Part shown: in pieces, positions 36,096 to 57,132 of the stretch
Numbering within the stretch: the first letter of the stretch is position 1
Layout of the letters: every line of letters begins with the position of its first letter
NCBI RefSeq assembly: GCF_025151385.1
Contig: NZ_CP102287.1
Coordinates: forward strand, 2,790,001-2,854,000
Direction of reading: 5' to 3'
Source of the DNA: Hoylesella buccalis ATCC 35310
GTDB taxonomy: Bacteria > Bacteroidota > Bacteroidia > Bacteroidales > Bacteroidaceae
DNA: 64,000 nucleotides
Position numbers and translations under genes: made by a program
The notes under the pieces: model-generated
What the model was told of the DNA's origin: nothing
The model's input: the letters and a program-made list of their open reading frames with translations, nothing else
The model's database searches: none

Positions 36096-38015
36096 CTATA
36101 ATTCAGTGACAAGCGTTTGGCGTGGAGACAACTTGATGTCTTTGCTCACGTCCACGTTCTCACCGGTAATGACGTCATGAGCAGCAGTTGATTTGCCGAT
36201 GACTTCGGCATATCGCTTCACGTCCAACTGGGCTTCTTTCGATGTTCCGTTAAGTACAGTCAGCACTGTTTTACCTTGATATTGGCGTGCTAAGACGTAC
36301 ACCCCTTGGTGGGGAATGAACTGAATCTGCTTGCCTTGGGTAATTACTTCATTGCCTTGTCGCCAATGCAGCAGCTTGCTGAGCCAGTTGAACATTTCGT
36401 TTTGTGCCTTTGACCTTCCTTCTGCCGTGAATGCCGTGTGTGCATCGCCCGGGAAACCACCAGGGAAATCCTGACGTACATGCCCATCGGTCACCTCTTT
36501 GGTGCCATTCATCAGCACTTCGGTGCCGTAATATAGCTGCGGAGTGCGATTCATGGTGAGCAAAAGGGCTAAGGCTTGTTTGAGTGCGGCGACATCTTGT
36601 CCATTACCTAAGAATCGGTCGGTGTCGTGATTCTCGATGAAAGCCATCACATCTTTTGGATTTTCGTATAGGTAATCGTACACCAGTGAGTTGTAAACCC
36701 TGTTCAGTCCATTCCACCAGCCATCGGTCTCTTCATTCTTCGCCTTGTTGATTTTCTCAAAGAAACTAAAATCCATGACGCTTTTCAAGTTGCTGTTGAT
36801 GTCCGACAGCTTACAGTCTTTTTGCCAAGCCGCAGTATAAGCGGGTTCTGTATTCCATGTTTCGCCCACCACATTGAAGTTGGGATACTCCTCGTTGAGC
36901 GTCTTCATCCACAGTGCCATGGCTTTACGATCGGCATAAGGATAGGTGTCCATGCGGATGCCATCGATGCCTACGGTCTCAATCCACCATATACTGTTTT
37001 GGATGAGGTACTTGATGACGTGCGTATTGCGTTGGTTCAAGTCGGGCATGGAGGGTACAAACCATCCGTCAACGGTTTCTTTCTGGTCTATTTCCGAAGC
37101 GTATGGGTCGAGTACCGGCGTGAGTTTATAGCTGGTCTGCAAATACTTGGAGTTGGTTTTTGTACCATTTGTCATGCCTGTCTTCTCGTCTTTGCCAGTA
37201 TTCTTGCCTTCCTCGAGCCATTCAGGCACGTTCAACCAATCGTCAGAGGGCAATTCTTTGAGCCATGGGTGTTCAAATCCGCAATGGTTGAAAATCATGT
37301 CCATCACCACTTTAAGTCCTTTTTGGTGAGCTTCGTCAATGAGCTGTCGATATTCCTCGTTAGTGCCAAAGCGTGGGTCTACCTTATAATAATCTGTCGT
37401 GGCATAGCCATGATAGGTACTAAAGCCGTTGGTGTCGGGCGAATTGTTTTCCAGTACAGGCGTGAACCATAGAGCGGTCACCCCTAAATTCGTGAAATAA
37501 TCGAGGTTTTTGCGAATGCCCTCCAAATCGCCCCCATGTCTCAGACTGGGTTTCGTGCGGTCGCAAACATATTTGTTCATGCCTTTTATCTGGTCGTTCT
37601 TGGTGTCTCCGTTGGCGAATCGGTCGGGCATGAGCATGTACAGCACGTCGGCATTGGTGAATCCCATGCGCTTGTCGCCACTCATCTCACGCTGCTTCAG
37701 CTCGTATTTCACTTTTTTTGTTTTCTTTCCCTTTGTGAACGACAGCGTGATGATGCCTGGCTTGGCGTCCTTCAGGTTGAGGTAAGCCAACAAATAATGT
37801 GCGTTGGGCATCTGTACCACACTGTCTATTTGCACGCCAGCGTCACGGGTGGTTACTTGAGTGCCGTGCAAGTCGTTGCCGTACACCATGAGTTGTAAAC
37901 TCGCATCCTTCATCCCAACAAACCAATTGGTTGGGTCAATGCGGTTTATTTGTATTTGGGCATACGTCGCAAAAGTCTGTGTCAAAAGGGAAATGACAAA
38001 TAATAACTTCTTCAT
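36096..38015 (-). CDS. susA: Periplasmic neopullulanase SusA-like, GH13
   Basis: 639 residues. Signal peptide to ATYAQ, an N-terminal immunoglobulin-like domain (IQINRIDPTNWFVGMKDA), then the GH13 barrel: MDMIFNH (238-244), GIRMDTYPYAD with nucleophile Asp356, VVGETW with Glu385 and FIENHD with Asp464, and a C-terminal beta domain. It cuts alpha-1,4 links in pullulan and maltooligosaccharides in the periplasm. In Bacteroides, susA neighbours susB and susC; here it is the last of four genes of the leftward starch operon, 12 bases after pulA. Confidence 0.92.
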   Translation of the reverse strand: MKKLLFVISLLTQTFATYAQIQINRIDPTNWFVGMKDASLQLMVYGNDLHGTQVTTRDAGVQIDSVVQMPNAHYLLAYLNLKDAKPGIITLSFTKGKKTKKVKYELKQREMSGDKRMGFTNADVLYMLMPDRFANGDTKNDQIKGMNKYVCDRTKPSLRHGGDLEGIRKNLDYFTNLGVTALWFTPVLENNSPDTNGFSTYHGYATTDYYKVDPRFGTNEEYRQLIDEAHQKGLKVVMDMIFNHCGFEHPWLKELPSDDWLNVPEWLEEGKNTGKDEKTGMTNGTKTNSKYLQTSYKLTPVLDPYASEIDQKETVDGWFVPSMPDLNQRNTHVIKYLIQNSIWWIETVGIDGIRMDTYPYADRKAMALWMKTLNEEYPNFNVVGETWNTEPAYTAAWQKDCKLSDINSNLKSVMDFSFFEKINKAKNEETDGWWNGLNRVYNSLVYDYLYENPKDVMAFIENHDTDRFLGNGQDVAALKQALALLLTMNRTPQLYYGTEVLMNGTKEVTDGHVRQDFPGGFPGDAHTAFTAEGRSKAQNEMFNWLSKLLHWRQGNEVITQGKQIQFIPHQGVYVLARQYQGKTVLTVLNGTSKEAQLDVKRYAEVIGKSTAAHDVITGENVDVSKDIKLSPRQTLVTEL

Positions 38016-38027
38016 CTTATTTTCTTT

Positions 38028-39989
38028 TTACTGCTGTTTTCTTAGAATCATGGCTGATTGGGCAGGGACAATGGCCTTGTCGGCATGTTCGTCGAGCATC
38101 AATTTCTCTGTTCCGTTGACATCAATGACCCCATCGTAGCACAGTACGTTGTACGCTCCAGCGGGTAAGGATACCTGCTTCTCGGTTTTGTTGGCATTGA
38201 GCAGCACGTAGATATCACTGTTGGTGGGGGCATCAAACAAGCGATAACCCACCAAGCAAGGTTCTGTTGGGAGGAAGGTGAGATACTGTCGAACGGCCTC
38301 GGCATTGCCCAAGCGGAATGCCTGGTATTGCTTTCGCAGTGCAATGAGTCCCTTGTAATAGCTGAACACTTGCGGGTAACGCTGCAAATTTTCCCAATCC
38401 AACCGATTGATACTGTCAGGTGACTTGTAGCTGTTGTGCACACCTTTCTTATCTCTGAACATCTCCTCGCCGCTGAGCATGAAAGGCACGCCCTGCGATG
38501 TGAAGACCGCAGTCTGCGCCAAGAGGTTCAGGCGTATCTGCTCCTCCACTGTGAGGTTGGGTATGCTGGCTTTCAGGCGGTCGTTCAGACACATGTCGTC
38601 GTGGCAGCTCACATAGCTGATCATCTGTGTCGGCTCTGTGGCCCACGCCTCTTGGGCATAGTTCACCTTGGTCATGTCTACCTGTGGGTGTGCTATTGCG
38701 CCGGCGATGCCAAACTTAATGCTTTCTTCCAGCCCTGCGATGCCGGCGAGAAACGCCCCCTTGCTGTCGTCCGAGAACGGGCCGCGGAGTGCATCGCGCA
38801 GTTCATCGCTGAAAGCACCGATGCGTGGCATCTGTTTAACGTTGGCCTTGAGTGCCAACTTTTCCGTAGGATAGGCACACGTTCCTGCACTCCATCCCTC
38901 ACCATAGATATATATTGATGGATCTATCCTGTCCATTTCCTCGCGTATGAGGTTCATCGTTTCTATGTCGTGCACACCCATCAAATCCACGCGGAAGCCA
39001 TCAATGTGATATTCCGTAGCCCAGTATTTCATGCTTTCAATCATGAATTCGCGCATCAACGGCTTTTCCGAGGCAGTCTCGTTGCCGCAGCCAGAACCGT
39101 CAGAATAGGTGCCGTCGGCATTCTTGCGATAGAAATAATCGGGAAAGGTGCGTTGGAAATTGCTGCCGTCGATGTCGAACGTATGGTTATACACCACGTC
39201 GAGAATGACGCGGATGCCCGCCTTGTGCAGTGCTTGCACCATCTGCTTGAATTCCCTGATGCGCACTTCGGGCTTGTAGGGATCCGTGGCATACGAGCCT
39301 TCGGGCACATTGTAGTTCAGTGGGTCGTAGCCCCAATTGTACTGAGGCTGGTCGAGTTTTGTCTCATCCACCGAGGCATAATCGTAGGAGGGGAGGATGT
39401 GTACGGCGTTGACACCCAGCGACACCAAGTGTTCGATGGCTTTAGGCTCGGTGAGTGCCAAGTATTTTCCCTTATGTTTTAGTCCGGACGACGCATCAAT
39501 GGAAAAGTCCCTGTGGTGCATTTCATAGATGACGAGGTCTGCAGGCGACGCCAATGCTGGCCTGACATCGTGTTCCCAGCCCACGGGATTGGTGGTCTTC
39601 ATGTCTATGATAGCTCCCCGTTTGCCGTTCACGCCTACGGCACGGGCAAACATCCCCGGCATTTCCACGGGTTGCTTCTTTGTTCCCACCACGTCGAAGG
39701 TATAGAACATGCCTTTCAAATCACCCTTCACATCTGCTATCCACCCGAAATTCTCTTCTCGCTTCATCTTGGTGGTCTTCACCGGCTTGCCGCCCAATCC
39801 CTCACGATAGAGTCTGATGAGAGGCCGATGCCGTGCATTGTCGGGGGCACACAGGAAAAAGGTAGTCTCTGATGACGTGTAGTCAACGTGGCTGGTGTAA
39901 TCTATGGCCATTGTATCGAGTGACTGCGCGCGCATCCATGCGCACATGATTAAAAGGAAGAATGTTAGAAACAGTACTTTCAATTTCAT
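38028..39989 (-). CDS. pulA: Type I pullulanase, GH13_14
   Basis: 653 residues. Signal peptide to MRAQS, an N-terminal CBM48-like domain, then the barrel with the type I pullulanase hallmark YNWGYDP (217-223), DVVYNHT, GFRVDL (nucleophile Asp335), IYGEGW (Glu364) and SCHDD. It debranches alpha-1,6 links of amylopectin or pullulan fragments, probably in the periplasm. The combination of pulA with susA and susB gives complete debranching capacity. It starts 32 bases after susB. Confidence 0.94.
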   Translation of the reverse strand: MKLKVLFLTFFLLIMCAWMRAQSLDTMAIDYTSHVDYTSSETTFFLCAPDNARHRPLIRLYREGLGGKPVKTTKMKREENFGWIADVKGDLKGMFYTFDVVGTKKQPVEMPGMFARAVGVNGKRGAIIDMKTTNPVGWEHDVRPALASPADLVIYEMHHRDFSIDASSGLKHKGKYLALTEPKAIEHLVSLGVNAVHILPSYDYASVDETKLDQPQYNWGYDPLNYNVPEGSYATDPYKPEVRIREFKQMVQALHKAGIRVILDVVYNHTFDIDGSNFQRTFPDYFYRKNADGTYSDGSGCGNETASEKPLMREFMIESMKYWATEYHIDGFRVDLMGVHDIETMNLIREEMDRIDPSIYIYGEGWSAGTCAYPTEKLALKANVKQMPRIGAFSDELRDALRGPFSDDSKGAFLAGIAGLEESIKFGIAGAIAHPQVDMTKVNYAQEAWATEPTQMISYVSCHDDMCLNDRLKASIPNLTVEEQIRLNLLAQTAVFTSQGVPFMLSGEEMFRDKKGVHNSYKSPDSINRLDWENLQRYPQVFSYYKGLIALRKQYQAFRLGNAEAVRQYLTFLPTEPCLVGYRLFDAPTNSDIYVLLNANKTEKQVSLPAGAYNVLCYDGVIDVNGTEKLMLDEHADKAIVPAQSAMILRKQQ

Positions 39990-40021: not shown

Positions 40022-44930
<4,909 letters not shown>

Positions 44931-44979: not shown

Positions 44980-44987
44980 CAAATGTA
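44980..44987 (-). promoter_or_regulatory. -7 box of the malQ-susB-pulA-susA operon
   Basis: TACATTTG on the minus strand; expected start of transcription near 44973, 43 bases before the malQ ATG. The same octamer is used in front of the LacI gene (48652-48645). Confidence 0.7.
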
Positions 44988-45042
44988 TAAATAATAAATA
45001 AGGTGATGTTGCTTTGGAACGCTAATTGTCGAAAAAATATTA

Positions 45043-45056
45043 TGCAATCGTTTGCA
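45043..45056. promoter_or_regulatory. LacI-type operator upstream of malQ
   Basis: TGCAATCGTTTGCA differs in one position from the perfect palindrome TGCAAACGTTTGCA at 48708-48721. Its centre is 69.5 bases upstream of the last base of the malQ -7 box, the same distance as at the lacI promoter. Confidence 0.75.
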
Positions 45057-45109
45057 CATGCGTTGCTTTTCCCTCCCGATTGTAGGTGCCGTGGGGATGA
45101 GTTTTGTCC

Positions 45110-45432
45110 GATTATTTGGTCATTTCAAAATCTTCATTCTAGCTTCTCGAGAAGGTGATTTTAACCCTTTGAAGGTCGGTTTTTACACCTTGACGAGCCA
45201 AAAGCATAGAGTTTGTTTGCACAGAACAATGTTTTTGAAGAGAAAAGTGATGGTGGTTGACCTGCAAACTCTATGCTTTTGGCAGTCAATAGCATGGAGT
45301 TTGCTGCCGACCGAAAATACTCGTCATATACAATAGTTTGATAATGAGCGATATACAAAAATCGCGTATTTGCCGTCAATCTGTCGATTGCTTGCAAATA
45401 CGCGAGTATTGAGGGTGCATGTCAATATTTTT
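45110..45432 (+). repeat. Dispersed intergenic element, copy E
   Basis: Order: GGTCATTTCAAAATCTTCAT (45118-45137), a TTTTAACCC word, a perfect 19-bp inverted repeat GCCAAAAGCATAGAGTTTG (45197-45215) with its complement at 45265-45283, CAATAGCATGGAGTTTG, GATAATGAGCGATATA, then the terminal hairpin TCGCGTATTTGC (45362-45373)/GCAAATACGCGA (45394-45405) and GTGCATGTCAATATTTTTGAC. The remaining 45433-45610 shows nothing I can name. Confidence 0.75.
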
Positions 45433-45610
45433 GACACTTTTACACCTCTGTTTTGTGGCGTTTGACACCTGCGTTTAAGGAGAAAAATGACATTCCACGG
45501 AGCGGATATAAACTTGCTGCAAAAATTTGTTCTCGAAGGCGGTCGTTACCACTGTGGTCGAGTGTTAACTGCCAACAGCTAATTCTGCAACAAATACTTC
45601 CTAACCGATG

Positions 45611-46900
45611 TCACTCCTTAACATCTTTGATCAGCGATACAGCGGCGGCACCCAGTAACAGTGAGATGCCCGCAACGAACATCATGTGGCTCTGAATCGA
45701 GCCTACAAGACTGAGGAGTGTGCCTCCTATTAACGCAGCCACGATTTGCGGAATGCAGATGGTGCCATTGAACAGGCCGAGGTAAGCACCCATGTGGCCA
45801 TAACCTTGCAGGGCGTTGGTAACAAAAGTAAACGGCATGGCCAGGATGGCGGCCCACGCACAGCCTATGAGGAGGAACGGAATGAACAACAAGTACTGGT
45901 CGTGCACCACGGTACAGGCTGCAAAACCTATGGCACCCAATGCCAGACTAAGAGCGTAGGCGGTCTTCCTACTACCGAGTTTGGGCAGCAATGGTGCCCA
46001 TAGCACAGAGCCAATGGCCTGCACGGCGAACAATACGCCCACCCAGTTGCCAGCCTCTTGTGCTCCCTCGCTGGCCATGTCGGTGGTGCCCCAAACGTTG
46101 GCGGCTACGGTGCCGTGCGTATAGGTCCACATGTACATGAAGGCTATCCAACTGAAGAACTGCACGATGCCTACCTTCCAGAAAGTGGAGGGTGCATGCT
46201 TGAGTAGGGTTATCCAGTTTTCTTTCTTCTCTGTATCAGACTTCAGACTGCCGTTGTACTGCTCGTACTCCTGCGGTGGCCACTCCCGTACCTTGGAGAT
46301 GGTGTAGTTGACGCAGAGAATAAGGATGCCCGCACCCACGATAAAGCTGTAGATCACCGAGTCGGGGATGACACCCTTGGGTGCCGTGTTGGCGATGCCC
46401 AACAACGCGAAGAAGAATGGAAACAGATAACCCACTAACGAACCTGCATTGCACAGCAAGCTCTGGATGGAGTAGGCCTTGGCTTTCTGTTTTTCGTTAA
46501 CCATATCACCCACGAGCATCTTAAACGGTTGCATGGCCATATTAATAGAGGTGTCGAGGAACATGAGCATGACAAGTCCGAAAATCATAGCTTCTGATGC
46601 CGACATGCCAAACGAGCCGGAATGGGGTAACAGGCACATGACCAGTACAGCTGCTGCCGCTCCGATGAATAAGTAAGGGATGCGACGACCATAGCGTGTC
46701 CATGTTCGATCTGAAAGTGTACCGATAATGGGTTGCACCACAATGCCCATCAAGGGTGGCAGAATCCAGAAATAACTCAAGTTGTGTGGGTCTGCGCCCA
46801 GTGTGGCGAAGATACGCGAGATGTTTGCACTTTGTAGCGCGTACGCAATCTGTACACCGAAAAATCCGAAACTTAAATTCCAAAGTTTCCAAAAGCTCAT
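45611..46900 (-). CDS. Inner-membrane sugar transporter, MFS (SLC45/GPH-like)
   Basis: 429 residues from the ATG at 46900 (MSFWKLWNLSFGFFGVQIAYAL); ten more codons upstream would be encoded by AATTCATAATTC repeats and are rejected. Twelve transmembrane helices are apparent, with the loop motif GTLSDRTWTRYGRRIPYLF typical of glycoside/cation symporters and SLC45-type sucrose and maltose carriers. It probably takes maltose or maltooligosaccharides from the periplasm to the cytoplasm, where MalQ acts. Same strand as, and probably in one unit with, the LacI-type gene. Confidence 0.9.
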   Translation of the reverse strand: MSFWKLWNLSFGFFGVQIAYALQSANISRIFATLGADPHNLSYFWILPPLMGIVVQPIIGTLSDRTWTRYGRRIPYLFIGAAAAVLVMCLLPHSGSFGMSASEAMIFGLVMLMFLDTSINMAMQPFKMLVGDMVNEKQKAKAYSIQSLLCNAGSLVGYLFPFFFALLGIANTAPKGVIPDSVIYSFIVGAGILILCVNYTISKVREWPPQEYEQYNGSLKSDTEKKENWITLLKHAPSTFWKVGIVQFFSWIAFMYMWTYTHGTVAANVWGTTDMASEGAQEAGNWVGVLFAVQAIGSVLWAPLLPKLGSRKTAYALSLALGAIGFAACTVVHDQYLLFIPFLLIGCAWAAILAMPFTFVTNALQGYGHMGAYLGLFNGTICIPQIVAALIGGTLLSLVGSIQSHMMFVAGISLLLGAAAVSLIKDVKE

Positions 46901-46916
46901 GTCGGGCTTCTTTTTT

Positions 46917-47040
46917 AATTCATAATTCATAATTCTTAATTCATACTTTTGGTTGAGTATACGATGAAGTTTTTTTGCAATTCATAATTCATAATTCGTT
47001 ATTCATACTTTTGGTTGAATATACGTTGAGGTTTTTTTTG
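46917..47040. repeat. Two tandem 62-bp repeats with AATTCATAATTC words
   Basis: Copies begin at 46917 and 46979. Each has AATTCATAATTCATAATTC, then TTCATACTTTTGGTTGA, TATACG and a run of T. They differ at about six positions. They lie between the four-helix-bundle gene and the transporter gene; AATTATGAATT words recur on the other side of the small gene (47570-47600). Confidence 0.8.
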
Positions 47041-47069
47041 ATTCATTATGTTTCATGCAAAACGGTTAA

Positions 47070-47441
47070 TTATTGTTTTTGTTGTTCCTTGGTAATGTGC
47101 TTGATGATGGATGTTAGTAGTTTAATCAATTCAACGCAATCTGCTTGGAGGCTTTTTGCTGCCGTTTCGTTAATATATTGAGTGCGCCATAAAAGTTCTA
47201 TCCAGTATTCTGTTTCACTCGCTTCTTTCAGTGCGATGTTGAGTTTTGATTTAAAATCTGCTTTTGATTGAGCTCTTAGTGCTTCTTTTACGTTTGCGCC
47301 AATACTCGTTCCGCTTCGTATAAGCTGTTTGCTCATTTCGTATTCTTTTTTCTCTTCTCTCAGATATTTACAGAGATTTACACAGCGAATAGCAAAAGAA
47401 AAACTCTTTTGGACGATTACATTGTTGTCTATATCTTTCAT
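47070..47441 (-). CDS. Four-helix-bundle protein of the 23S rRNA intervening-sequence (S23) family
   Basis: 123 residues from the ATG at 47441 (MKDIDNNVIVQKSFSFAIRC); the frame continues 26 codons upstream but those are not family-like. Motifs: YEMSKQLIRSGTSIGANVKEA and ASETEYWIELL, both standard in the family. Such proteins are found inside 23S rRNA intervening sequences and, in Bacteroidetes, scattered between genes; function unknown, though a nucleic-acid role is suspected. It separates the LacI gene from the transporter and is flanked on both sides by AATTATGAATT arrays, suggesting insertion as a unit. Confidence 0.88.
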   Translation of the reverse strand: MKDIDNNVIVQKSFSFAIRCVNLCKYLREEKKEYEMSKQLIRSGTSIGANVKEALRAQSKADFKSKLNIALKEASETEYWIELLWRTQYINETAAKSLQADCVELIKLLTSIIKHITKEQQKQ

Positions 47442-47598
47442 TGATAGCTGGAGTTTAGGTTCAAGTGAAAATATATGTATTATATGTATTATATAGATAC
47501 CTATTACAAAGGTATTCATTTCAACATGATTTCTTCATATTCCATAACAAAATACTGTCAGCAAATAAAATTATGAATTATGAATTCTTAATTATGAA

Positions 47599-48624
47599 TT
47601 ACCTCGTTGTTCCCCTAATAATAAGTTTTGTTCTCACGATTCTCTTTTCAATCTTGTCAGGTGGGATGAAACCCTCCACACGAGAAATGAGGATGTTAGC
47701 CGCTTCTTCGCCTACCCGCACGCCACGCTGCTCTACGGTGGTGAGCATGGGGTCGCAGGCCTTGGCACGGTCACCATTGGTAAAGCCACAGATAGAGATA
47801 TCCTCGGGTACCCGATACCCCATGCGCTTGGCAGCGTAGAGAATGCCCACGGCCGTATCATCGTTCACGGCGAAGAAAGCATCGGGGGCTTCCTCCTGAC
47901 TCAGCAGCTCGGGGGTGATTAGCTCTGCGTCGGCGCGATTGTCGCAGATTCGGAAAAAACGGTCGTCAGCCTTCAGTCCGTACTTGGTAATAGCATCGCG
48001 GTAGCCGTTGTAACGGTTTTTGGAAATCTCCATGGTCATCAGCGTGCCGTAGTAAGCAATGCGCCGACAGCCAGTCTGTATCAAGTGGGTGACAGCATTG
48101 AAGGCACCCATATAGTCGTCCACCACCACTCGACTACATTCCACGCCCGTACAAATACGGTCGTAAAACACAAGTGGCATGCCGTGGTTTATCAGTTTCT
48201 GGAAATGCTCATAGCGTATGGTATCCTTGGCTTGTGAAACGATGACGCCGCACACCTTGTTCTCAAAATAATCCTGGCAGATGCGCACTTCACGATCGTA
48301 TTTCTCGTTGCTCTGCGCCACCATGATGCGATAGCCGCGGGCACTGGCTTCCTCTTCGATGCCGGAGAGGATGCTGGAGAAATAGAAATGTGACAGCTGA
48401 GGAACAATGACGCCAATGACTCTCAGTGGTTTCACCTTGCTGTTGCGCAGCGACTCTGCGATGACGTTGGGATAGAAATTATGTTCGCGCGCGTAGGCCT
48501 GTATCTTTTCCCGTTGTTCTTTGCTGATGCTCGGGTTGTCTTTCAACGCACGCGAGACCGTTGCAATAGAAACACCCAGTTCCTTTGCAATGTCTTTCAT
48601 TGTGAGCGGTGACAAAATATCCAT
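47599..48624 (-). CDS. LacI-family regulator of the starch system
   Basis: 341 residues. N-terminal helix-turn-helix TMKDIAKELGVSIATVSRAL with hinge NVIAESLRN, then a periplasmic-binding-protein-like effector domain (IGVIVPQLSHFYFSSILSGI, VNDDTAVGILYAAKRMG). It sits divergent from susC with a palindromic operator between them. In Bacteroides the starch system uses the membrane activator SusR; a LacI-type protein here is a different control. Effector is probably a maltooligosaccharide (inference). The operator position, far upstream of the promoters, suggests activation. Confidence 0.92.
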   Translation of the reverse strand: MDILSPLTMKDIAKELGVSIATVSRALKDNPSISKEQREKIQAYAREHNFYPNVIAESLRNSKVKPLRVIGVIVPQLSHFYFSSILSGIEEEASARGYRIMVAQSNEKYDREVRICQDYFENKVCGVIVSQAKDTIRYEHFQKLINHGMPLVFYDRICTGVECSRVVVDDYMGAFNAVTHLIQTGCRRIAYYGTLMTMEISKNRYNGYRDAITKYGLKADDRFFRICDNRADAELITPELLSQEEAPDAFFAVNDDTAVGILYAAKRMGYRVPEDISICGFTNGDRAKACDPMLTTVEQRGVRVGEEAANILISRVEGFIPPDKIEKRIVRTKLIIRGTTR

Positions 48625-48644
48625 TTAGGTTGTTATTAGTGATA

Positions 48645-48652
48645 CAAATGTA
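48645..48652 (-). promoter_or_regulatory. -7 box of the LacI-type gene
   Basis: TACATTTG on the minus strand, start expected near 48638. Its last base is 69.5 bases from the centre of the operator at 48708-48721. Confidence 0.6.
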
Positions 48653-48707
48653 TGCAAAACCTGAGAATGCAGGAAAGCAAGTCGTTGATTTCTAACCAAA
48701 TCTTTCA

Positions 48708-48721
48708 TGCAAACGTTTGCA
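48708..48721. promoter_or_regulatory. Palindromic operator between lacI and susC
   Basis: TGCAAACGTTTGCA, a perfect 14-bp palindrome with the central CG typical of LacI-family sites. It lies about halfway between two divergent -7 boxes (48645 and 48783). Confidence 0.85.
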
Positions 48722-48775
48722 CTACTAAAACAACGAATTTATAGGAAAAATCGTATGTTAAAGGTTAAACAATAC

Positions 48776-48783
48776 TAACTTTG
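48776..48783 (+). promoter_or_regulatory. -7 box of the susCDE operon
   Basis: TAACTTTG, no TTTG at the standard distance, so the promoter is probably weak without an activator. Start expected near 48790, giving a leader of about 174 bases before susC. Confidence 0.6.
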
Positions 48784-48963: not shown

Positions 48964-51963
48964 ATGAAGCAGGTAAATTTTACATTGCCGCTGAGAATGC
49001 TAACGCTGTTGTGTGTGTTGGTATTATCAGTCAGTGCCTTCGCGCAACAAATTGCCGTGAACGGCCATGTGAAGGATGAAACCGGCGAACCCATTATTGG
49101 CGCTACTATTAGAGTAGTGGGACAGACGGGAGGTACGGTGACAGACTTTGATGGAAATTTCACCATCAACGCCAATACGGGCGACAAAATCTCCGTTAGT
49201 TACATTGGTTACGATGTCTTTGAGGCACCAGCAACCGCCAAGATGACCATTACTCTGAAAGAAGCTAAAGGCGAGTCGATCAACGAAGTGGTGGTGATTG
49301 GCTACGGACGAGTGAAGAAAAACGACTTGACGGGTAGTGTTACTGCCTTGAATGCAGAGAAAATGGTAAAGGGAGCCGTTACCTCTGCCACCGATATGTT
49401 GGTAGGTAAGGCTGCTGGTGTGAGCGTTATCACTGACGGTGGCGCTCCAGGTGCTGGTGCGACGATACGTATTCGTGGTGGTTCGTCTATGTCGGCATCC
49501 AATAACCCGTTGGTGGTAATCGATGGTGTACCCGTAGACGATGGTGGCATCAACGGTATGGCCAATCCTTTGAGTACCGTTCACCCCGATGATATCGCTA
49601 CTATGACGGTGTTGAAGGATGCGTCAGCAACAGCTATCTATGGTTCGCGTGCATCGAATGGTGTGATTCTTATCACCACCAAGAAAGGAAAAGCTGGTGG
49701 TATTCAAGTTGGATACAGCGGTTCTGTGAAGGTGAGCACCAGTGTCAAGGACGTGGATGTGATGTCGGCAAACGACTTCAAGAACTTTGTAATCTCCAAA
49801 TTTGGTGAACAAAGCATGCAAGCCAAGGCTCTTGGCACGAGCGACACCGACTGGCAGAAGGAGGTGCTGCGCACATCTGTTAGCACCGACCACAACATTA
49901 ACGTGTCGGGTGCGGTGGCTAACTTGCCTTACCGTGTGTCGGTAGGTTATACGAATGAGAACGGTATCGTGAAGACATCCAACATGGAACGTTATACGGG
50001 TGCCATCAACTTGAGTCCGCAATTCTTTGACAAGCATCTCTCTGTTCAGTTGAACCTCAAGGGTATTTACAACACCAACCGTTTTGCAGACCTTGGTTCT
50101 TTGGGCATGGCAACACAGTACGACCCCACACAGCCCATCTATATGAAAGGGTCTGAATATGGCAACGGCTACTTCATGTATCTCAACGACAAGGGAAAAC
50201 CCATCGACATTGCTTTGGCTAACCCTGTATCCATCCTCACGGACAAGAGCGACAAGACAAAAGTGTACCGCAGCATCGGTAACGCACAGTTCGACTATAA
50301 ATTCCATTTCTTGCCCGACTTGCGTGCAAACCTCAATTTAGGATATGATGTTTCCAAGGGAACGGGCGACGTGATAACCGTAGACAACTCTCCTATGTCG
50401 TGGACGTGGGGCAACTTCAAGAAAGGATTTGGTGAGAACAGCAGCTTCTGGCAGCTCAAGCGGAATACGTTGTTGGAGTTCTACATGAACTACAACAAGA
50501 CCTTTGGCGCACACTTCATTGATGCCATGGCAGGTTATTCGTGGCAGCACTTCTATCGTTCGGAATGGACCAAGTACCCCTATTCAGCGGCCAAGACTAA
50601 GGAATATGGCAAAGAATTCTACAAGGGCGAGGATGATTTCAGCACCGAGAACTACCTCGTTTCGTTCTTCGGACGTGTGAACTACACCTTATTAGATCGT
50701 TATCTCTTGACATTCACTTTGCGTAATGACGGTTCTTCACGCTTCAACAAAGACAATCGCTGGGGTATATTCCCATCGGCAGCATTGGCTTGGCGTATCA
50801 ACGAGGAGGCTTTCTTGAAAGACGCACGCTGGCTTGATGATTTGAAACTGCGTTTGGGTTACGGTGTGACCGGTCAGCAGAACCTTGGTAGCGGTGATTA
50901 CCCCTACATGGCACGCTACGCTTATTCACAACCAGGTGCCAATTACTATTTTGGTGACAAGCGTATACAGCTCATTGCACCATTGGCTTATGATGAAAAC
51001 TTGAAGTGGGAGGAAACCACGACCTATAACGCTGGTCTCGACTTTGGCTTCTTCAAAGGCATGCTCTCGGGTACGCTGGATTTCTATTATCGACAGACCA
51101 ACAACTTGTTGAACACTGTTACGGCACCAGCTGGCACCAACTTCAGCAATGAGTTACTTACCAATGTCGGCACATTGGAAAACAAAGGTGTGGAACTATC
51201 GTTGACTGCACATCCTATTACAACTAAGGATTTCCAGTGGACACTGGGTTACAACGTGTCGTACAACAAGAACACCATCACCAAACTGACGTTCAACGAC
51301 GACCCCAAATATAAGGGCGTGATACATGGTGGTATCGATGGTGCCACAGGTTACAACATTCAAATTAATGCTGTTGACAAGCCATACAACTCGTTTTATG
51401 TGTTTGAACAGATGTATGATGAGAACGGAACTCCTATTGAAGGAGCTTATGTAGACCAGAACAACGACAATAAGATTGATGAAGGCGACCTTATTCCTTA
51501 CAAGAAATCGGCTCCTGATGTTTACATGGGTTTGACATCGCAGCTGAATTACAAGAACTGGGATATGTCGTTCGCACTCCGCTCGAGCATTGGCAACTAT
51601 GTGTACAACAACACACAGTCTAACCGTGAGGCATGGGACGGTTCACAGATGTACGACCAGACAGGCTTCTTGAAGAATCGTCTAAACTCTGCCGCCAACA
51701 AGAACTTCCATACGGGACAGTACCGCAGCAGCTACTACGTGCAGAAAGCTGACTTTGTTCGCATGGACAACATCTCGCTCGGCTACACATTCAATAAGCT
51801 GTTCAATGATAAACAGTCCGCTCGTCTGTATTTCACCGTGCAAAATCCGTTTGTCATTACCAACTATAGCGGTATTGACCCTGAAATCAGCGGCGAGGGT
51901 ATAGACAACAAGATTTATCCGAGACCTATTTCGTTTATGTTTGGTTTCAATTTCAAATTCTAA
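48964..51963 (+). CDS. susC: SusC-like TonB-dependent starch importer
   Basis: 999 residues. Signal peptide to SAFAQ, carboxypeptidase-regulatory-like domain (VNGHVKDETGEPIIGATIRV), TonB box region (INEVVVIGYGRVKKNDLTGS), plug (VVIDGVPVDDGGINGMANPL) and a 22-strand barrel ending in FMFGFNFKF. No STN domain, in contrast to the SusC near 22 kb, which agrees with control by LacI rather than a sigma/anti-sigma pair. It imports maltooligosaccharides across the outer membrane with SusD. Confidence 0.96.
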   Translation: MKQVNFTLPLRMLTLLCVLVLSVSAFAQQIAVNGHVKDETGEPIIGATIRVVGQTGGTVTDFDGNFTINANTGDKISVSYIGYDVFEAPATAKMTITLKEAKGESINEVVVIGYGRVKKNDLTGSVTALNAEKMVKGAVTSATDMLVGKAAGVSVITDGGAPGAGATIRIRGGSSMSASNNPLVVIDGVPVDDGGINGMANPLSTVHPDDIATMTVLKDASATAIYGSRASNGVILITTKKGKAGGIQVGYSGSVKVSTSVKDVDVMSANDFKNFVISKFGEQSMQAKALGTSDTDWQKEVLRTSVSTDHNINVSGAVANLPYRVSVGYTNENGIVKTSNMERYTGAINLSPQFFDKHLSVQLNLKGIYNTNRFADLGSLGMATQYDPTQPIYMKGSEYGNGYFMYLNDKGKPIDIALANPVSILTDKSDKTKVYRSIGNAQFDYKFHFLPDLRANLNLGYDVSKGTGDVITVDNSPMSWTWGNFKKGFGENSSFWQLKRNTLLEFYMNYNKTFGAHFIDAMAGYSWQHFYRSEWTKYPYSAAKTKEYGKEFYKGEDDFSTENYLVSFFGRVNYTLLDRYLLTFTLRNDGSSRFNKDNRWGIFPSAALAWRINEEAFLKDARWLDDLKLRLGYGVTGQQNLGSGDYPYMARYAYSQPGANYYFGDKRIQLIAPLAYDENLKWEETTTYNAGLDFGFFKGMLSGTLDFYYRQTNNLLNTVTAPAGTNFSNELLTNVGTLENKGVELSLTAHPITTKDFQWTLGYNVSYNKNTITKLTFNDDPKYKGVIHGGIDGATGYNIQINAVDKPYNSFYVFEQMYDENGTPIEGAYVDQNNDNKIDEGDLIPYKKSAPDVYMGLTSQLNYKNWDMSFALRSSIGNYVYNNTQSNREAWDGSQMYDQTGFLKNRLNSAANKNFHTGQYRSSYYVQKADFVRMDNISLGYTFNKLFNDKQSARLYFTVQNPFVITNYSGIDPEISGEGIDNKIYPRPISFMFGFNFKF

Positions 51964-51976
51964 ATAGCAACTCAAA

Positions 51977-53596
51977 ATGAAAAGATATCATATTAAAAAG
52001 TCATTATTCTTGCTCTTGTCAGGAGCATTGTTAGGAATGACCTCCTGTGTAGGAGACTTGGATACCGAACCGTTGGACAAGGATGAATTAGTGTCTAATG
52101 TAGTGTTCAAAAACGACATCAACGCCTACACCGAGAGCCTCGCCAAGATTTATGCAGGCATGGTGATAGGTGGAAACAAAGGTGGAGACGCTGAGCAAGA
52201 CGTCAAAGGAATCGACGGAGGCTCGCAGGCTTCTTTCATACGTGTGTTGTGGAACATGCAGGAACTGGCATCCGACATGGCTCACTGTGCATGGAACGAC
52301 CCAGGAATCCCTGGCTTCAACCATCTTTCTTGGGATTCATCAAGTCCATGGATCAAGGGTTCGTATTACCGATTGGCGTACCAAATCAACTTGGCGAATG
52401 CTTTCCTTCGTGAGACCACTGACGACAAGCTGAGTAGCCGCGGTTGTAACGAGCAAGTTAAGCAGACGGTAAAGACGTATAGAGCTGAGGCTCGATTCCT
52501 GCGTGCGCTCACTTACATGTACGCCCTTGACCTGTATCGCAACTATCCGTTCTTTGATGAGAATAGTACAATAGGTAGCGAGCGTCCACAACAAATTATG
52601 AAGGACGACCTTTATAAATATGTGGAGAAAGAATTACTGGAATGCGAGAAGGATCTTGCTGCTCCTGTTGTAGGCTGGAACAAGAATTATGGCAACGCTA
52701 ACAAGGCTGCCGCATGGGCTGCTCTGTCGCGTTTGTACCTCAATGCAGAGACTTACGTGGGGCAGAAGAAGTACACCGAGTGCATCACTTATAGCAAGAA
52801 AATCATTGCAGCAGGTTATGAGCTGGAACCCAACTATGGCGACATGTTCAAGGCGGACAACGATCACTCCAAGGAAATGATTTTCCCACTTCGCTACGAA
52901 GGTGCTGAAACCATGACTTGGGGAGGTATGACAGCTCTGTTGTGTTGGGGTTCTGCACAATTCCAAGAAGAGACGAATGCCAAGGGAGCTTGGCAAGGAG
53001 TACGTGCCAAGTCATCACTGCTCAAGTTGTTTACCAACGAGAAAAAGCATGAGGAAGACACTCGATTCGCCATGCTGCGCTTGGATGGAACCAAGAACGT
53101 GGAAATTGTCAAGGAGGGCGACTTCAAGGACAATGGTATTCCCGTGACCAAGTTCTACAACATAAATAAGGATGGTAGCAAACCCGAATCAAGCGAAGCT
53201 TACGTTGACTTCCCATTGTTCCGCTTGGGCGAGATCTACCTGAACTTGGCAGAGGCTGTTCTCCGTGGCGGAACAGGTGCTACCAAGAACGAAGCCATGA
53301 ACTATCTGAACGAATTGCGTAAGCGTGCCTATAAAGAAAAGACCGTGGCACCTATCGATGACAACAACTTTACGTTGAAGTTCTTGCTCGACGAGCGTGG
53401 ACGTGAGCTCTTCTTCGAGGCACAACGCCGCACCGATCTCGTGCGCTTTGGCAAGTACACCTCCGCCGATTATGTATGGCCTTGGAAGGGTGGCGTTGCG
53501 GAAGGTAAAGCTGTGGACGACAAGTACAAGATATTCCCATTGCCTTCTGACGACATTGGCTCGAACCAGAACTTGAAACAGAATGATGATTATTAA
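51977..53596 (+). CDS. susD: SusD-like starch-binding lipoprotein
   Basis: 539 residues. Lipobox GMTSC-VGDLDT. The SusD/RagB fold is recognised from AEARFLRALTYMYALDLYRNYPF, the C-terminal FRLGEIYLNLAEAVLRGGT and DERGRELFFEAQRRTDLVRF, with each motif given in part. It binds starch helices and forms the lid on SusC. It starts 13 bases after susC. Confidence 0.96.
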   Translation: MKRYHIKKSLFLLLSGALLGMTSCVGDLDTEPLDKDELVSNVVFKNDINAYTESLAKIYAGMVIGGNKGGDAEQDVKGIDGGSQASFIRVLWNMQELASDMAHCAWNDPGIPGFNHLSWDSSSPWIKGSYYRLAYQINLANAFLRETTDDKLSSRGCNEQVKQTVKTYRAEARFLRALTYMYALDLYRNYPFFDENSTIGSERPQQIMKDDLYKYVEKELLECEKDLAAPVVGWNKNYGNANKAAAWAALSRLYLNAETYVGQKKYTECITYSKKIIAAGYELEPNYGDMFKADNDHSKEMIFPLRYEGAETMTWGGMTALLCWGSAQFQEETNAKGAWQGVRAKSSLLKLFTNEKKHEEDTRFAMLRLDGTKNVEIVKEGDFKDNGIPVTKFYNINKDGSKPESSEAYVDFPLFRLGEIYLNLAEAVLRGGTGATKNEAMNYLNELRKRAYKEKTVAPIDDNNFTLKFLLDERGRELFFEAQRRTDLVRFGKYTSADYVWPWKGGVAEGKAVDDKYKIFPLPSDDIGSNQNLKQNDDY

Positions 53597-53617: not shown

Positions 53618-55222
53618 ATGAAACTTAAAAATATATTATTCCTTGCAGCTGGTTTCTTGGCTATGGCATCATGTTCGGATGACATCACCACGCCAGTGCT
53701 CAGCTTGCAACAAGCTGCGAAGCTCAACGCTGTCAATCCAGCCACGATAACTTTCACAAAGGCAAACAGTGCTGAGGCTTTTCCACAAATCAGTTGGGAA
53801 AAAGCAAATTACGGCAAGGGTGCAGTGGTTGAATACACTGTTACCATTACCAATAATGAGAACAAAAAGAGCATTGAGGCAGGTAGCACCGAGGATAACA
53901 AACTCACGTTTACCAATGAGGAGATGAACTCGCTGTTGGCAAAGATAGGTGCCTATCCTGGTCATACCTATGACTTCACCGTATCTCTTAAGTCTTCTGC
54001 ATTCAAGACGCTGATCAACGATGCGCAGAACACGGTCAACTTCAAGGCTACACCTTACGACCCCAACACTGTGAACATTGATTGGAACTATGCCTATGTG
54101 GCTGTGGGTTATCCCGAGTGGGATTATTCTAAGGCTTATCTCCTTGGCGACCCCGATGGTGACGGCACTTACCAAGGTTGGGTGCAGTTTGACGAAGAAT
54201 GTACATTTGCTGTCGTGGATGGCAAAGACGTTACCAAGGTACTCGCCAAAGACTTGAAGGTTGATGCTGCTAAGAAGGGATTTGTCGAGGTGACACTCAC
54301 ACCCGACGGCAATGTGACTATCGGAGAGTCCTGCGAGTGGGGTATGGTTGGAGATGCTACATCTGTTGGATGGAATGAAAAAGAACCTGTCAAGATGGAG
54401 TACGATAAAGAAACCCGTATGTGGACGGCAATCACACCGTTGACAGATAAATACTTCAAATTCATTGCCAATAAGGCTTGGAAAATCAACTATGGTAGCG
54501 ACAAAAACAATCCAAGTGTTTTGGCGCAAGGTGGCGAAAACCTCAAGGTGGCTAAGACACACGCATACATCGTGAAGCTTAACTTGACTACTGCTGGCAA
54601 GTACACCTACACCATGGAAGAGACCAACATCGAAGTGTCGAGTACCGAGCTTTCAGTGCCTGGCTCTTATCAGGGTTGGAATCCGACAGCAAAAAGCGCT
54701 TACCGACTCGAGTCAAAGAGCCGCGACTTCCAATATACAGGCATCTACTATTATCCTGCCAATACCGAGTTCAAACTCTATGACGACGGTAAATGGCTGG
54801 GTAGCAGAGGCGAAGTGAAATGGAACGAGGACAAGACTAAGGCTGAGTTTGACCTTGGCGAAGGAGACAAAGGAGACAACATCAAGTTCACCGAAGGTGG
54901 CTGGTATCGCATCACAGCCAACACTAAGAAGATGCTTGCCTCCGTTGCCAAGACTGGATGGGGAATTGTTGGCGATGCCACACCCGGAGGATGGGACAAG
55001 GACCAAATGATGACCTACAACCCCGAGACCAAGAAGTGGTCTATCACCATAACAATGGTGGACGGTGAATTTAAGTTCCGTTGGGATGCCTCATGGGAAA
55101 AGAATCTCGGTGGTGCCCTATCAGGTCTTACCGATGGTGGCGACAACATCAAGATTGGTGCAGGTACCTACCTCATCGAGCTTGACCCCGAAGCCAAAAC
55201 TGCTACCGTAACAGAGCAATAA
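53618..55222 (+). CDS. SusE/SusF-like multi-domain starch-binding lipoprotein
   Basis: 534 residues. Lipobox LAMASC-SDDITTP. An N-terminal Ig-like SusE domain (residues 25-140, FPQISWEKANYGKGAVVEYT) is followed by probably four carbohydrate-binding modules: about 150-235, 245-335 (EWGMVGDATSVGWNEKEP), 345-445 (VPGSYQGWNPTAK) and 447-534 (GWGIVGDATPGGWDKDQ). Bacteroides SusE has two starch sites and SusF three, so this protein is longer than SusE and more like SusF. It lies on the cell surface and holds starch near the importer. It starts 21 bases after susD. Confidence 0.88.
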   Translation: MKLKNILFLAAGFLAMASCSDDITTPVLSLQQAAKLNAVNPATITFTKANSAEAFPQISWEKANYGKGAVVEYTVTITNNENKKSIEAGSTEDNKLTFTNEEMNSLLAKIGAYPGHTYDFTVSLKSSAFKTLINDAQNTVNFKATPYDPNTVNIDWNYAYVAVGYPEWDYSKAYLLGDPDGDGTYQGWVQFDEECTFAVVDGKDVTKVLAKDLKVDAAKKGFVEVTLTPDGNVTIGESCEWGMVGDATSVGWNEKEPVKMEYDKETRMWTAITPLTDKYFKFIANKAWKINYGSDKNNPSVLAQGGENLKVAKTHAYIVKLNLTTAGKYTYTMEETNIEVSSTELSVPGSYQGWNPTAKSAYRLESKSRDFQYTGIYYYPANTEFKLYDDGKWLGSRGEVKWNEDKTKAEFDLGEGDKGDNIKFTEGGWYRITANTKKMLASVAKTGWGIVGDATPGGWDKDQMMTYNPETKKWSITITMVDGEFKFRWDASWEKNLGGALSGLTDGGDNIKIGAGTYLIELDPEAKTATVTEQ

Positions 55223-55323: not shown

Positions 55324-57132
55324 ATGGCAATGAAACATATATACACCTTATTATTACTGATGCTGGCACTCGCTGGCAACGTTCACGCGCAGGGGTGGCC
55401 AAAGGATTACAAGGGCGTGATGCTGCAAGGCTTTTATTGGGACAGCTATCAAGACACGCAATGGAGCCATTTAGAGAGCCAGGCTGACGAACTGTCCAAA
55501 TACTTCTCACTCATTTGGGTGCCACAGTCGGGCAATTGCAACACGCTGAAAAACCAAATGGGCTATGCGCCTATATGGTGGTTCAAACACGACAGCGCCT
55601 TTGGCAGCGAACAGCAATTGCGCAAGATGATTAAGACCTTCAAAGAAAAAGGCACGGGCATCATCGAAGATGTGGTCATCAACCACCGCAACGGCGACAC
55701 CGACTGGTGCAATTTCCCCCCGGAAACGTGGAATGGGCAAACCTTCACATGGTCGCTTGCCGATATTTGTAAAGGTGACGATCAAGGAGAAACAGAGCGA
55801 AATGGCTATGCATTGAAAGGCAATAGCGATACGGGCGACGACTTCAAAGGCGCACGCGACATCGACCACACTTCTGTGAATGCCCAAAAGAACATCAAGG
55901 CATATCTTGATTTCTTGTTGAATGATATGGGGTACACTGGTTTCCGTTACGATATGGTCAAAGGCTTTGCAGCCAAATATATTGGCATGTACAACACTTC
56001 TGCCAAACCCGTGTACTCGGTTGGCGAGTATTGGGACAACACAGGCAACATCAAGAACTGGATTAACGGCACCAAGGTAGATGGTGTTCCTACCTCTGCC
56101 GCTTTCGATTTCGACATGAAGTATCGTATTTATGATGCCTTTAGTTCTAATGGCGACTGGTCAAAACTCAACAGCGAGTGTTTGGCCAGCGATTCATATT
56201 ACAAGCAATATGCCGTAACGTTTGTCGACAATCATGATACAGGTCGCACCGATGGACACGGTCGCAGTCCACTGTTTGCCAACATCGAGGCTGCCAATGC
56301 TTATATCCTCGGCATGCCAGGCACGCCTTGCGTGTTCCTGCCACATTGGCTTCAATACAAAACCGCCATCAAGCGGATGATTGCCACACGCCGTGCCGTG
56401 GGCATCAGCAACACCAGCGACATCGTGCATGCCGATGCCAAAAACGATGGCTTCGTGCTGAAAGTAAAAGGCAGTCAAGGTGATTTGCTGTTGATATTGG
56501 GAAAAACGACAGACGCCGATACGCAAGGTATGAAGTTAGCGACATCGGGCGATAACTATAAAATGTATGTTAGCAATGCCGTCAACATTGATGAGGTAAC
56601 AAGCATCAAGGAAGAGCAAGCTACATTCCATGCGCCTTCGTTTTGCGTGGTGAACGATGGCGAGACCTGTGCTTTCTTTGAAAAGCCAAAAGACTGGAGT
56701 TCTGACATCAAGTGTTGGGCATGGAACGCTGCTGGCAACTTTACGGGTGGTACGTGGCCTGGCGTGGCATGCACCAAGGTAGGTGTGACTGACAATGGCA
56801 ACGAGGTGTGGAAGTGGACATGGAATGGCAACTTCACCAATGGCTCTGCCGAAGGACAAGTGCCAACTGGCATTATCTTCAGTACTTCGGGTGGCAAACA
56901 AACCAGCGACTTGAAGTTTCAAAATGGCGCATATTTCAATCCCACTGGTGTAAACTTAGGTGTGGTGACGGGCATCAACAAGTTGCTCTCGGCGCAGAAT
57001 GGCCAGCGCAAGGTGAACGTATACACAATGGACGGACGCCTTGTTCGCTCGCAAGTGAGCGAGGACAAGAGTCTGCAAGGATTACAAAAAGGCGTTTATG
57101 TGGTGAACCGCCGCAAGCTGCTCGTTCGATAA
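55324..57132 (+). CDS. Secreted alpha-amylase, GH13, with starch-binding and type IX sorting domains
   Basis: 602 residues (an ATG two codons later is equally possible). Signal peptide ending GNVHAQ with no lipobox, unlike SusG. GH13 motifs: DVVINH (116-121), GFRYD with nucleophile Asp210, VGEYW with Glu235, FVDNHD with Asp305; the barrel resembles the plant-type and related GH13_6/7 amylases. Residues about 450-550 form a CBM26-like starch-binding module (IKCWAWNAAGNFTGGTWPG). The last 40 residues (VNVYTMDGRLVRSQ ... LQKGVYVVNRRKLLVR) are a type A sorting domain for type IX secretion. It therefore takes the surface-amylase role of SusG but by another export route. Confidence 0.92.
   Translation: MAMKHIYTLLLLMLALAGNVHAQGWPKDYKGVMLQGFYWDSYQDTQWSHLESQADELSKYFSLIWVPQSGNCNTLKNQMGYAPIWWFKHDSAFGSEQQLRKMIKTFKEKGTGIIEDVVINHRNGDTDWCNFPPETWNGQTFTWSLADICKGDDQGETERNGYALKGNSDTGDDFKGARDIDHTSVNAQKNIKAYLDFLLNDMGYTGFRYDMVKGFAAKYIGMYNTSAKPVYSVGEYWDNTGNIKNWINGTKVDGVPTSAAFDFDMKYRIYDAFSSNGDWSKLNSECLASDSYYKQYAVTFVDNHDTGRTDGHGRSPLFANIEAANAYILGMPGTPCVFLPHWLQYKTAIKRMIATRRAVGISNTSDIVHADAKNDGFVLKVKGSQGDLLLILGKTTDADTQGMKLATSGDNYKMYVSNAVNIDEVTSIKEEQATFHAPSFCVVNDGETCAFFEKPKDWSSDIKCWAWNAAGNFTGGTWPGVACTKVGVTDNGNEVWKWTWNGNFTNGSAEGQVPTGIIFSTSGGKQTSDLKFQNGAYFNPTGVNLGVVTGINKLLSAQNGQRKVNVYTMDGRLVRSQVSEDKSLQGLQKGVYVVNRRKLLVR

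Follow-up and report, generated by a model that had tools for sequence, protein, structure and literature searches.

Accounts of how polysaccharide loci are regulated in Bacteroidota usually turn on SusR, hybrid two-component systems and extracytoplasmic function (ECF) sigma factors. In Escherichia coli, the LacI-family proteins GalR and Cra act on RNA polymerase from upstream sites, with mixed repression and activation and no single spacing rule. For CRP and other class I activators, the sites of action are at approximately -61.5, -71.5 and -82.5. OsuR of Bacteroides fragilis is reportedly a genetically demonstrated activator of the starch operon osuABCD that mediates maltose induction; to our knowledge, neither an operator nor a spacing rule has been published for this protein. 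Here we describe a 64,000-nucleotide stretch (the window) of the Hoylesella buccalis ATCC 35310 genome (NZ_CP102287.1, positions 2,790,001 to 2,854,000), in which a LacI-type protein encoded beside starch genes very probably serves as a dedicated class I-type activator of alpha-glucan use, as judged from a palindromic operator placed at a nearly fixed distance upstream of its putative target promoters.

The following reports are cited from the accessible parts of their texts. SusR of Bacteroides thetaiotaomicron is a local activator of starch genes that responds to maltose, and its predicted motif consists of two direct-repeat sites separated by 67 or 77 bp (PMC3878776). Predicted LacI-type regulators and no SusR are described for the sus loci of B. 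fragilis and B. uniformis (PMC11633381). Deletion of mdxR, encoding a LacI-family protein of Enterococcus faecium, lowers the expression of maltodextrin genes (PMC3737153), CcpA activates ackA, pta and ilvB from cre sites upstream of the -35 element (PMC3463425), and a LacI protein of Clostridium has been proposed to both activate and repress (PMC5171806). Whereas SusR is a membrane protein unrelated to LacI and is assigned direct repeats, the regulator of the window belongs to the LacI family, is not a membrane sensor of the SusR type and has a single palindrome as its predicted site; if the second site of the SusR motif were a -7 box, the distance would be similar in both systems. MdxR shares the LacI family with the window regulator but comes from a Firmicute. 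CcpA chains were the top sequence matches of the regulator among solved structures; CcpA is mostly a repressor and global, whereas for the window regulator the upstream position is the rule. No LacI-type starch activator of Prevotella or other Bacteroidota was found in our literature search, the coverage of which excluded most subscription journals. Relative to the texts covered, the operator, the spacing rule and the depletion of the -33 element are new, while LacI-family activation of maltodextrin genes was already known in E. faecium.

The regulator gene, its two operators and the three putative promoters are as follows (distances were measured from the last base of a -7 box of the pattern TAnnTTTG to the operator centre):

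47599..48624, minus strand: LacI-family regulator, 341 aa (Pfam PF00356, PF13377, PF00532)
48708..48721, no strand: operator O1, perfect palindrome TGCAAACGTTTGCA, common to the divergent lacI and susC promoters
45043..45056, no strand: operator O2, TGCAATCGTTTGCA (one base changed), upstream of malQ
48776..48783, plus strand: susC -7 box TAACTTTG, operator centre 68.5 bp upstream of the last base of the box
48645..48652, minus strand: lacI -7 box TACATTTG, operator centre 69.5 bp upstream of the last base of the box
44980..44987, minus strand: malQ -7 box TACATTTG, operator centre 69.5 bp upstream of the last base of the box

A preliminary description of the window had proposed that a palindrome between lacI and susC and a copy with one mismatch upstream of malQ lie 69.5 (malQ), 69.5 (lacI) and 68.5 bp (susC) from the respective boxes. 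Both sites are present as described, the distances are correct and were returned identically by a search of the genome for operator-box pairs, and the sharing of one operator by two divergent promoters as well as the recurrence of the spacing at a third, distant promoter hold in the window. The position of the operator near -76 has to be revised: with the promoter box mapped at -12 to -5 in Flavobacterium (PMC9723704, accessible part), and if this position applies here, the operator centre lies at approximately -74.5. The poor -33 elements noted earlier were likewise found: counting from the first T of the box, TTG is missing between -26 and -21 in all three promoters, and the lacI promoter has one TTG at -28.

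O1 and O2 were the only sites with 0-1 mismatch in the window; when up to 3 mismatches were allowed, 11 sites were found against 5.8 expected, a number reached in 5 of 100 shuffles. Both were also the only zero-mismatch matches to the consensus TGCAAWCGWTTGCA in the 3.31 Mb genome, where up to 2 mismatches gave 77 sites versus 28 for the reversed pattern. The single genomic site with one mismatch (L003) has no box near 69, and the three window promoters are the only operator-box pairs in the genome at 54.5-84.5 bp. The regulator itself combines an N-terminal LacI helix-turn-helix domain (PF00356, residues 8-53) with a periplasmic-binding-protein-like, sugar-binding domain (PF13377, 178-340), both scoring above cut-off, as in LacI/GalR proteins; its NCBIfam matches are all LacI-type families, each below its own cut-off. 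The protein is 99-100% identical to those of Hoylesella buccalis ATCC 35310 and Prevotella sp. BV3P1.

Conservation of the arrangement was studied in the best 80 of 228 candidate stretches with relatives of the regulator. An operator with at most 2 mismatches was present upstream of lacI in 77 of these 80 loci (L093, L109 and L112 were left out), so that a palindrome with central CG near the regulator gene, the usual form of a LacI/GalR operator, occurs at 48708-48721 and in the large majority of relatives. In 76 of the 77 loci a TAnnTTTG box faced lacI at 68.5 (n=18), 69.5 (n=47) or 70.5 bp (n=11), and in 76 of the 77 a box faced susC at 68.5 (n=22) or 69.5 bp (n=54). Only 7 boxes were located elsewhere within 200 bp of the operators, including 2 at the poor L093 site. 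From box density, approximately 0.14 boxes would be expected by chance in the three positions over 154 operator sides, versus 152 found at 68.5-70.5. The spacing was thus kept to about 1 bp on each side, as the divergent-promoter proposal predicted, while the spacer sequences had diverged (median ungapped identity 36% on the lacI side and 46% on the sus side). On the susC side, A/T-rich positions recur about every 10 bp between operator and box. Class I-type activators use sites that lie upstream of the core promoter and keep a fixed position on the helix, and at none of the box-bearing promoters does the operator lie over or just past the core promoter as for a classical repressor; operators without a promoter in front of malQ, treated below, are the exception.

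The same distance was found at promoters other than those flanking lacI. With up to one mismatch to a slightly relaxed pattern, the 80 loci contained 61 further operators, which had 37 boxes at 67.5-69.5 and 7 elsewhere. Twenty-four of these operators had no such box: 7 had a correctly placed box whose last base is A, not G, 12 were promoterless malQ sites and 5 stood alone. Where examined, the open reading frames (ORFs) 3' of the further operators were mostly malQ-, amylase- or susC-like (malQ and amylase ORFs were called by eye, with Pfam applied to eight), so the spacing seen at the malQ promoter of the window recurs at other malQ and amylase promoters and, in the wider search below, at GH97 promoters.

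Sixty Prevotella genomes of at least 95% completeness were then searched for operator-box pairs with any distance between 54.5 and 84.5. Matches occurred in 55 genomes, whereas the reversed pattern gave 1 hit in all 60, and among the 150 matches listed, which cover 40 of the 55 genomes with matches (the last one incompletely), 142 were at 67.5-70.5. From the listed matches we hand-picked 40 sites as being away from lacI, and 24 of them are followed by an ORF that resembles malQ, amylase/GH13 or GH97 (by eye; 5 confirmed by Pfam). The five genomes without a match (G060, G098, G102, G144, G147) had no LacI match at E 1e-60, the negative status of G144 and G147 being by elimination among the matches listed; they keep malQ, with no operator in the examined stretch. 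All 44 pattern-positive genomes covered by both searches have a LacI match (11 of the 60 were outside the LacI search). Paralogous LacI proteins with 36-40% identity were also among the matches of that search, and in G003 LacI is present, yet one malQ has no nearby operator. The co-occurrence of LacI and the operator-box pattern is compatible with binding of this operator by the regulator.

In a second genus of the same family, LacI was found in 52 of 99 genomes, and spacing was determined in 31 loci (30 from the LacI search in this genus plus L116). These had 32 operators, two loci being without one. On the lacI side 28 boxes were at 68.5-69.5 and 18 elsewhere, mostly second boxes at 97-148, and on the sus side 16 were at 68.5-70.5, 3 at 71.5-72.5 and 6 elsewhere. 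One genome of this genus is B. fragilis, a small contig of it being identical to the NCTC 9343 plasmid over the 4,000 bases compared; as in the window, a lacI relative (here followed by MFS and GH65 genes) faces away from a four-gene operon, susC-susD-susE-amylase, and the operator between them is 68.5/69.5 from the two boxes. From this gene position and the accessible part of PMC11633381, OsuR is probably the LacI relative divergent to the four-gene sus-like operon of B. fragilis. The second lacI box, nearer to the gene and often TACCTTTG, is seen in L116, L291, L296, L306, L315 and other loci of this genus, and could possibly be a basal promoter for the activator.

Beyond the family, a LacI match at E 1e-75 was present in 83 of 294 genomes from other families of the order. 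In 68 of the loci, 28 of them supplied by the LacI search and 40 retrieved in addition, the best operator at 10-200 bp was scored for each box; this gave 70 boxes, of which 18 were at 67.5-70.5, 9 at 79.5-81.5 and 12 at 91.5-94.5 (39 of 70 in total); the fixed helical position is thus kept in part in these families. In several regions the operators stand in tandem at an interval of 12 bp, and the nearest one is often at about 69; part of the 81 and 93 bp classes is explained by this arrangement. Tandem operators in two or three copies, some degenerate and arranged in 12-bp steps, lie upstream of TAnnTTTG boxes in L127, L132, L133, L144, L175, L180, L181 and L205. At the level of class and phylum, a LacI match was found in 49 of 296 genomes.

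Fixed spacing points to contact with RNA polymerase, while the sign of regulation lies outside what sequence can tell. The best sequence evidence for the sign is the depletion of the -33 element. TTTG and TTG were counted at -26 to -21 from the box, and TTTG also in the flanking windows -36 to -31 and -18 to -13, using the promoters of the 80 loci after removal of those more than 85% alike (162 reduced to 138 operator promoters, 66 to 65 others). TTTG at -26 to -21 was found in 1 of 138 operator promoters versus 12 of 65 others (Fisher p 5e-6) and TTG in 13 of 138 versus 17 of 65 (Fisher p 0.003), both p values being optimistic as the sequences are related. In the flanking windows the operator promoters were not depleted of TTTG (6/138 vs 1/65 at -36 to -31; 14/138 vs 3/65 at -18 to -13). 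In the second genus, 0 of 28 lacI and 2 of 19 sus operator-linked promoters had TTTG (2/47 together), versus 6 of 16 second lacI boxes from the same loci (p 0.002, again for related sequences). In both groups the putative targets are thus weak in the -33 element, as expected for a class I-type activator. Altogether, the kept spacing, its recurrence at other promoters and the -33 depletion favour the earlier suggestion of an activator, with the sign as the conditional part.

In the proposed mechanism, a dimer of the LacI-type protein would bind TGCAAWCGWTTGCA, with the centre of the site roughly 74 bp before the transcription start and always on the same face of the helix, and recruit RNA polymerase to promoters that have a good -7 box and no -33 box. 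The polymerase would probably be contacted via the C-terminal domain of its alpha-subunit, across the A/T tracts that separate the operator from the promoter. The symmetry of the dimer would allow a single operator to serve both directions, i.e. lacI (positive autoregulation) and susC-susD-susE-amylase. The second operator would serve malQ and, if they are co-transcribed, also the GH97, pullulanase and neopullulanase genes. The signal is likely to be maltose or a maltooligosaccharide.

Several observations weigh against this activator model or its generality. In 12 of the 80 loci malQ is preceded, at 31-61 bp, by an operator that has no box at 69, and 16 of the 40 hand-picked pairs away from lacI precede no recognisable starch gene; these 16 include one DUF3575 protein and one with a beta-lactamase fold, a protein of 922 residues that lacks a Pfam match, and ten sites without an ORF near the box. 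In the other families of the order, 31 of the 70 boxes fall outside the three distance windows and 29 of 69 loci have no operator-box pair at all, and 28 more distant loci from the class and phylum searches had 15 operator-like sites, none with a box near 69. Finally, a fixed distance alone also fits contact-dependent repression. As a separate observation, the pairs upstream of the DUF3575 and beta-lactamase-fold proteins, which are not obviously starch genes, are at 69.5 and 70.5 (L247 in G042 and L261 in G076, respectively).

The first of these points leads to a dual regulator, activating from the operator near -74 and repressing as a roadblock just before malQ in the 12 loci, which is compatible with the activator model and which we hold to be doubtful. 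In its favour, the 12 operators are located between malQ and the stop codon of the preceding gene, which looks MFS-like by eye, on the near side of the malQ start. Against it, the A/T-CG-A/T core is intact in only 3 of them (changed in 9) versus all 33 malQ operators with a promoter, according to manually compiled lists, a comparison that is weak as the 12 species may be close kin. The changed cores suggest decay after loss of the promoter, and the sites may be roadblocks or relics. The loci concerned are L050, L051, L057, L064, L066, L067, L070, L082, L085, L087, L089 and L107.

Alternatively, the protein could be a repressor that is released by maltose and that either touches RNA polymerase from the upstream site, as GalR does when it inhibits by polymerase contact, or blocks another activator, as is the case for CcpA and LevR. 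The well-known relatives of LacI are mostly repressors, and the fixed spacing speaks for polymerase contact and leaves the sign open. Upstream repression by a LacI-family protein is also on record, for CcpA at lev (PMC3463425, accessible part). On the other hand, TTTG at -33 is missing at nearly all operator promoters, which is why activation is preferred over contact-dependent inhibition; no second conserved site common to the lacI, sus and malQ spacers was seen by eye; and in 8 of 33 malQ spacers a terminator-like hairpin (simple stem test) fills part of the spacer with the distance unchanged. We regard an upstream repressor as unlikely. That the spacing merely reflects shared descent of one intergenic region without functional constraint, for which it can be said that the neighbour of lacI is susC or an MFS gene in many relatives, is hardly credible as the sole cause, given that the spacers have diverged and that promoters away from lacI, at other places in the genome, and promoters in other families show the same distance.

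Returning to the activator model, its extension over the order is evenly balanced in our judgement: the LacI lineage could be the ancestral alpha-glucan activator of Bacteroidales, of class I type and helix-phased near -74 (some families having further operators in tandem near -86 and -98), and SusR a later replacement. If so, there would be a general contact geometry for the RNA polymerase of Bacteroidota, a LacI protein whose sugar turns activation on, and a regulon that in some Prevotella includes a small RNA. A widespread LacI-type activator whose spacing is held to about 1 bp would provide a simple, predictive signature for starch regulons in Prevotella and B. fragilis-like species, and the spacing rule a handle on activator contact with the unusual polymerase recognising TAnnTTTG. 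It is also a warning that annotating LacI-type proteins of alpha-glucan loci as repressors may mislead.

The ten pairs without an ORF at the box (L243, L248, L252, L254, L259, L262, L265, L269, L270, L280) have operator-box distances of 68.5-69.5, and in 8 of them a terminator-like hairpin ends 100-250 nt downstream. An exact element, TTTTGTTGATTTAGTGA, is present in four of the ten stretches, and these are all four exact occurrences in the 60 genomes. With one mismatch there were 7 hits versus 9 for the reversed pattern, so only the exact hits carry weight. In Rfam no family scored above its gathering threshold in the ten stretches, a single tRNA hit lying elsewhere in L262, and in the genome of the window neither an ORF-less operator-box pair nor TTTTGTTGATTTAGTGA was found. 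The pairs followed by a hairpin may possibly mark a candidate small RNA under the same regulator.

In the window, the alpha-glucan locus comprises lacI, the MFS transporter gene, malQ, the GH97-type gene and the pullulanase and neopullulanase-like genes on the minus strand, and susC, susD, the susE-like gene and the amylase gene on the plus strand (major facilitator superfamily, MFS):

48964..51963, plus strand: SusC-like TonB-dependent transporter (Pfam)
51977..53596, plus strand: SusD-like protein (Pfam)
53618..55222, plus strand: SusE/SusF-like outer membrane protein (Pfam)
55324..57132, plus strand: alpha-amylase with CBM26 (Pfam)
45611..46930, minus strand: MFS sugar transporter, 3' of lacI (Pfam)
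42225..44930, minus strand: malQ, 4-alpha-glucanotransferase (GH77, CBM20; Pfam)
40022..42190, minus strand: GH97-type alpha-glucosidase (SusB-like), in line with malQ, start codon uncertain (likeness by eye to L244/L275)
38028..39989, minus strand: type I pullulanase (NCBIfam TIGR02104, above cut-off)
36096..38015, minus strand: neopullulanase/cyclomaltodextrinase-like amylase (SusA-like; NCBIfam, below cut-offs)

The L244/L275 proteins used for comparison were assigned to GH97 by Pfam, and the window gene itself matched in NCBIfam below cut-off. An MFS relative adjoins lacI in many loci of the other families, where lacI, MFS and divergent susC is a common order; for this neighbour comparison the label 'spaced' was assigned by hand from the operator-box pair results. 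A tRNA scan of the window found none. Between lacI and the MFS gene (46917-47601), a gene for a four-helix-bundle protein (47070-47519, TIGR02436) is flanked by AT-rich inverted repeats of about 40 nt and looks like an insertion. Two further inverted repeats lie between the MFS gene and the malQ operator, at 45197-45283 (19 nt arms, perfect) and 45356-45411 (26 nt arms, 81%).

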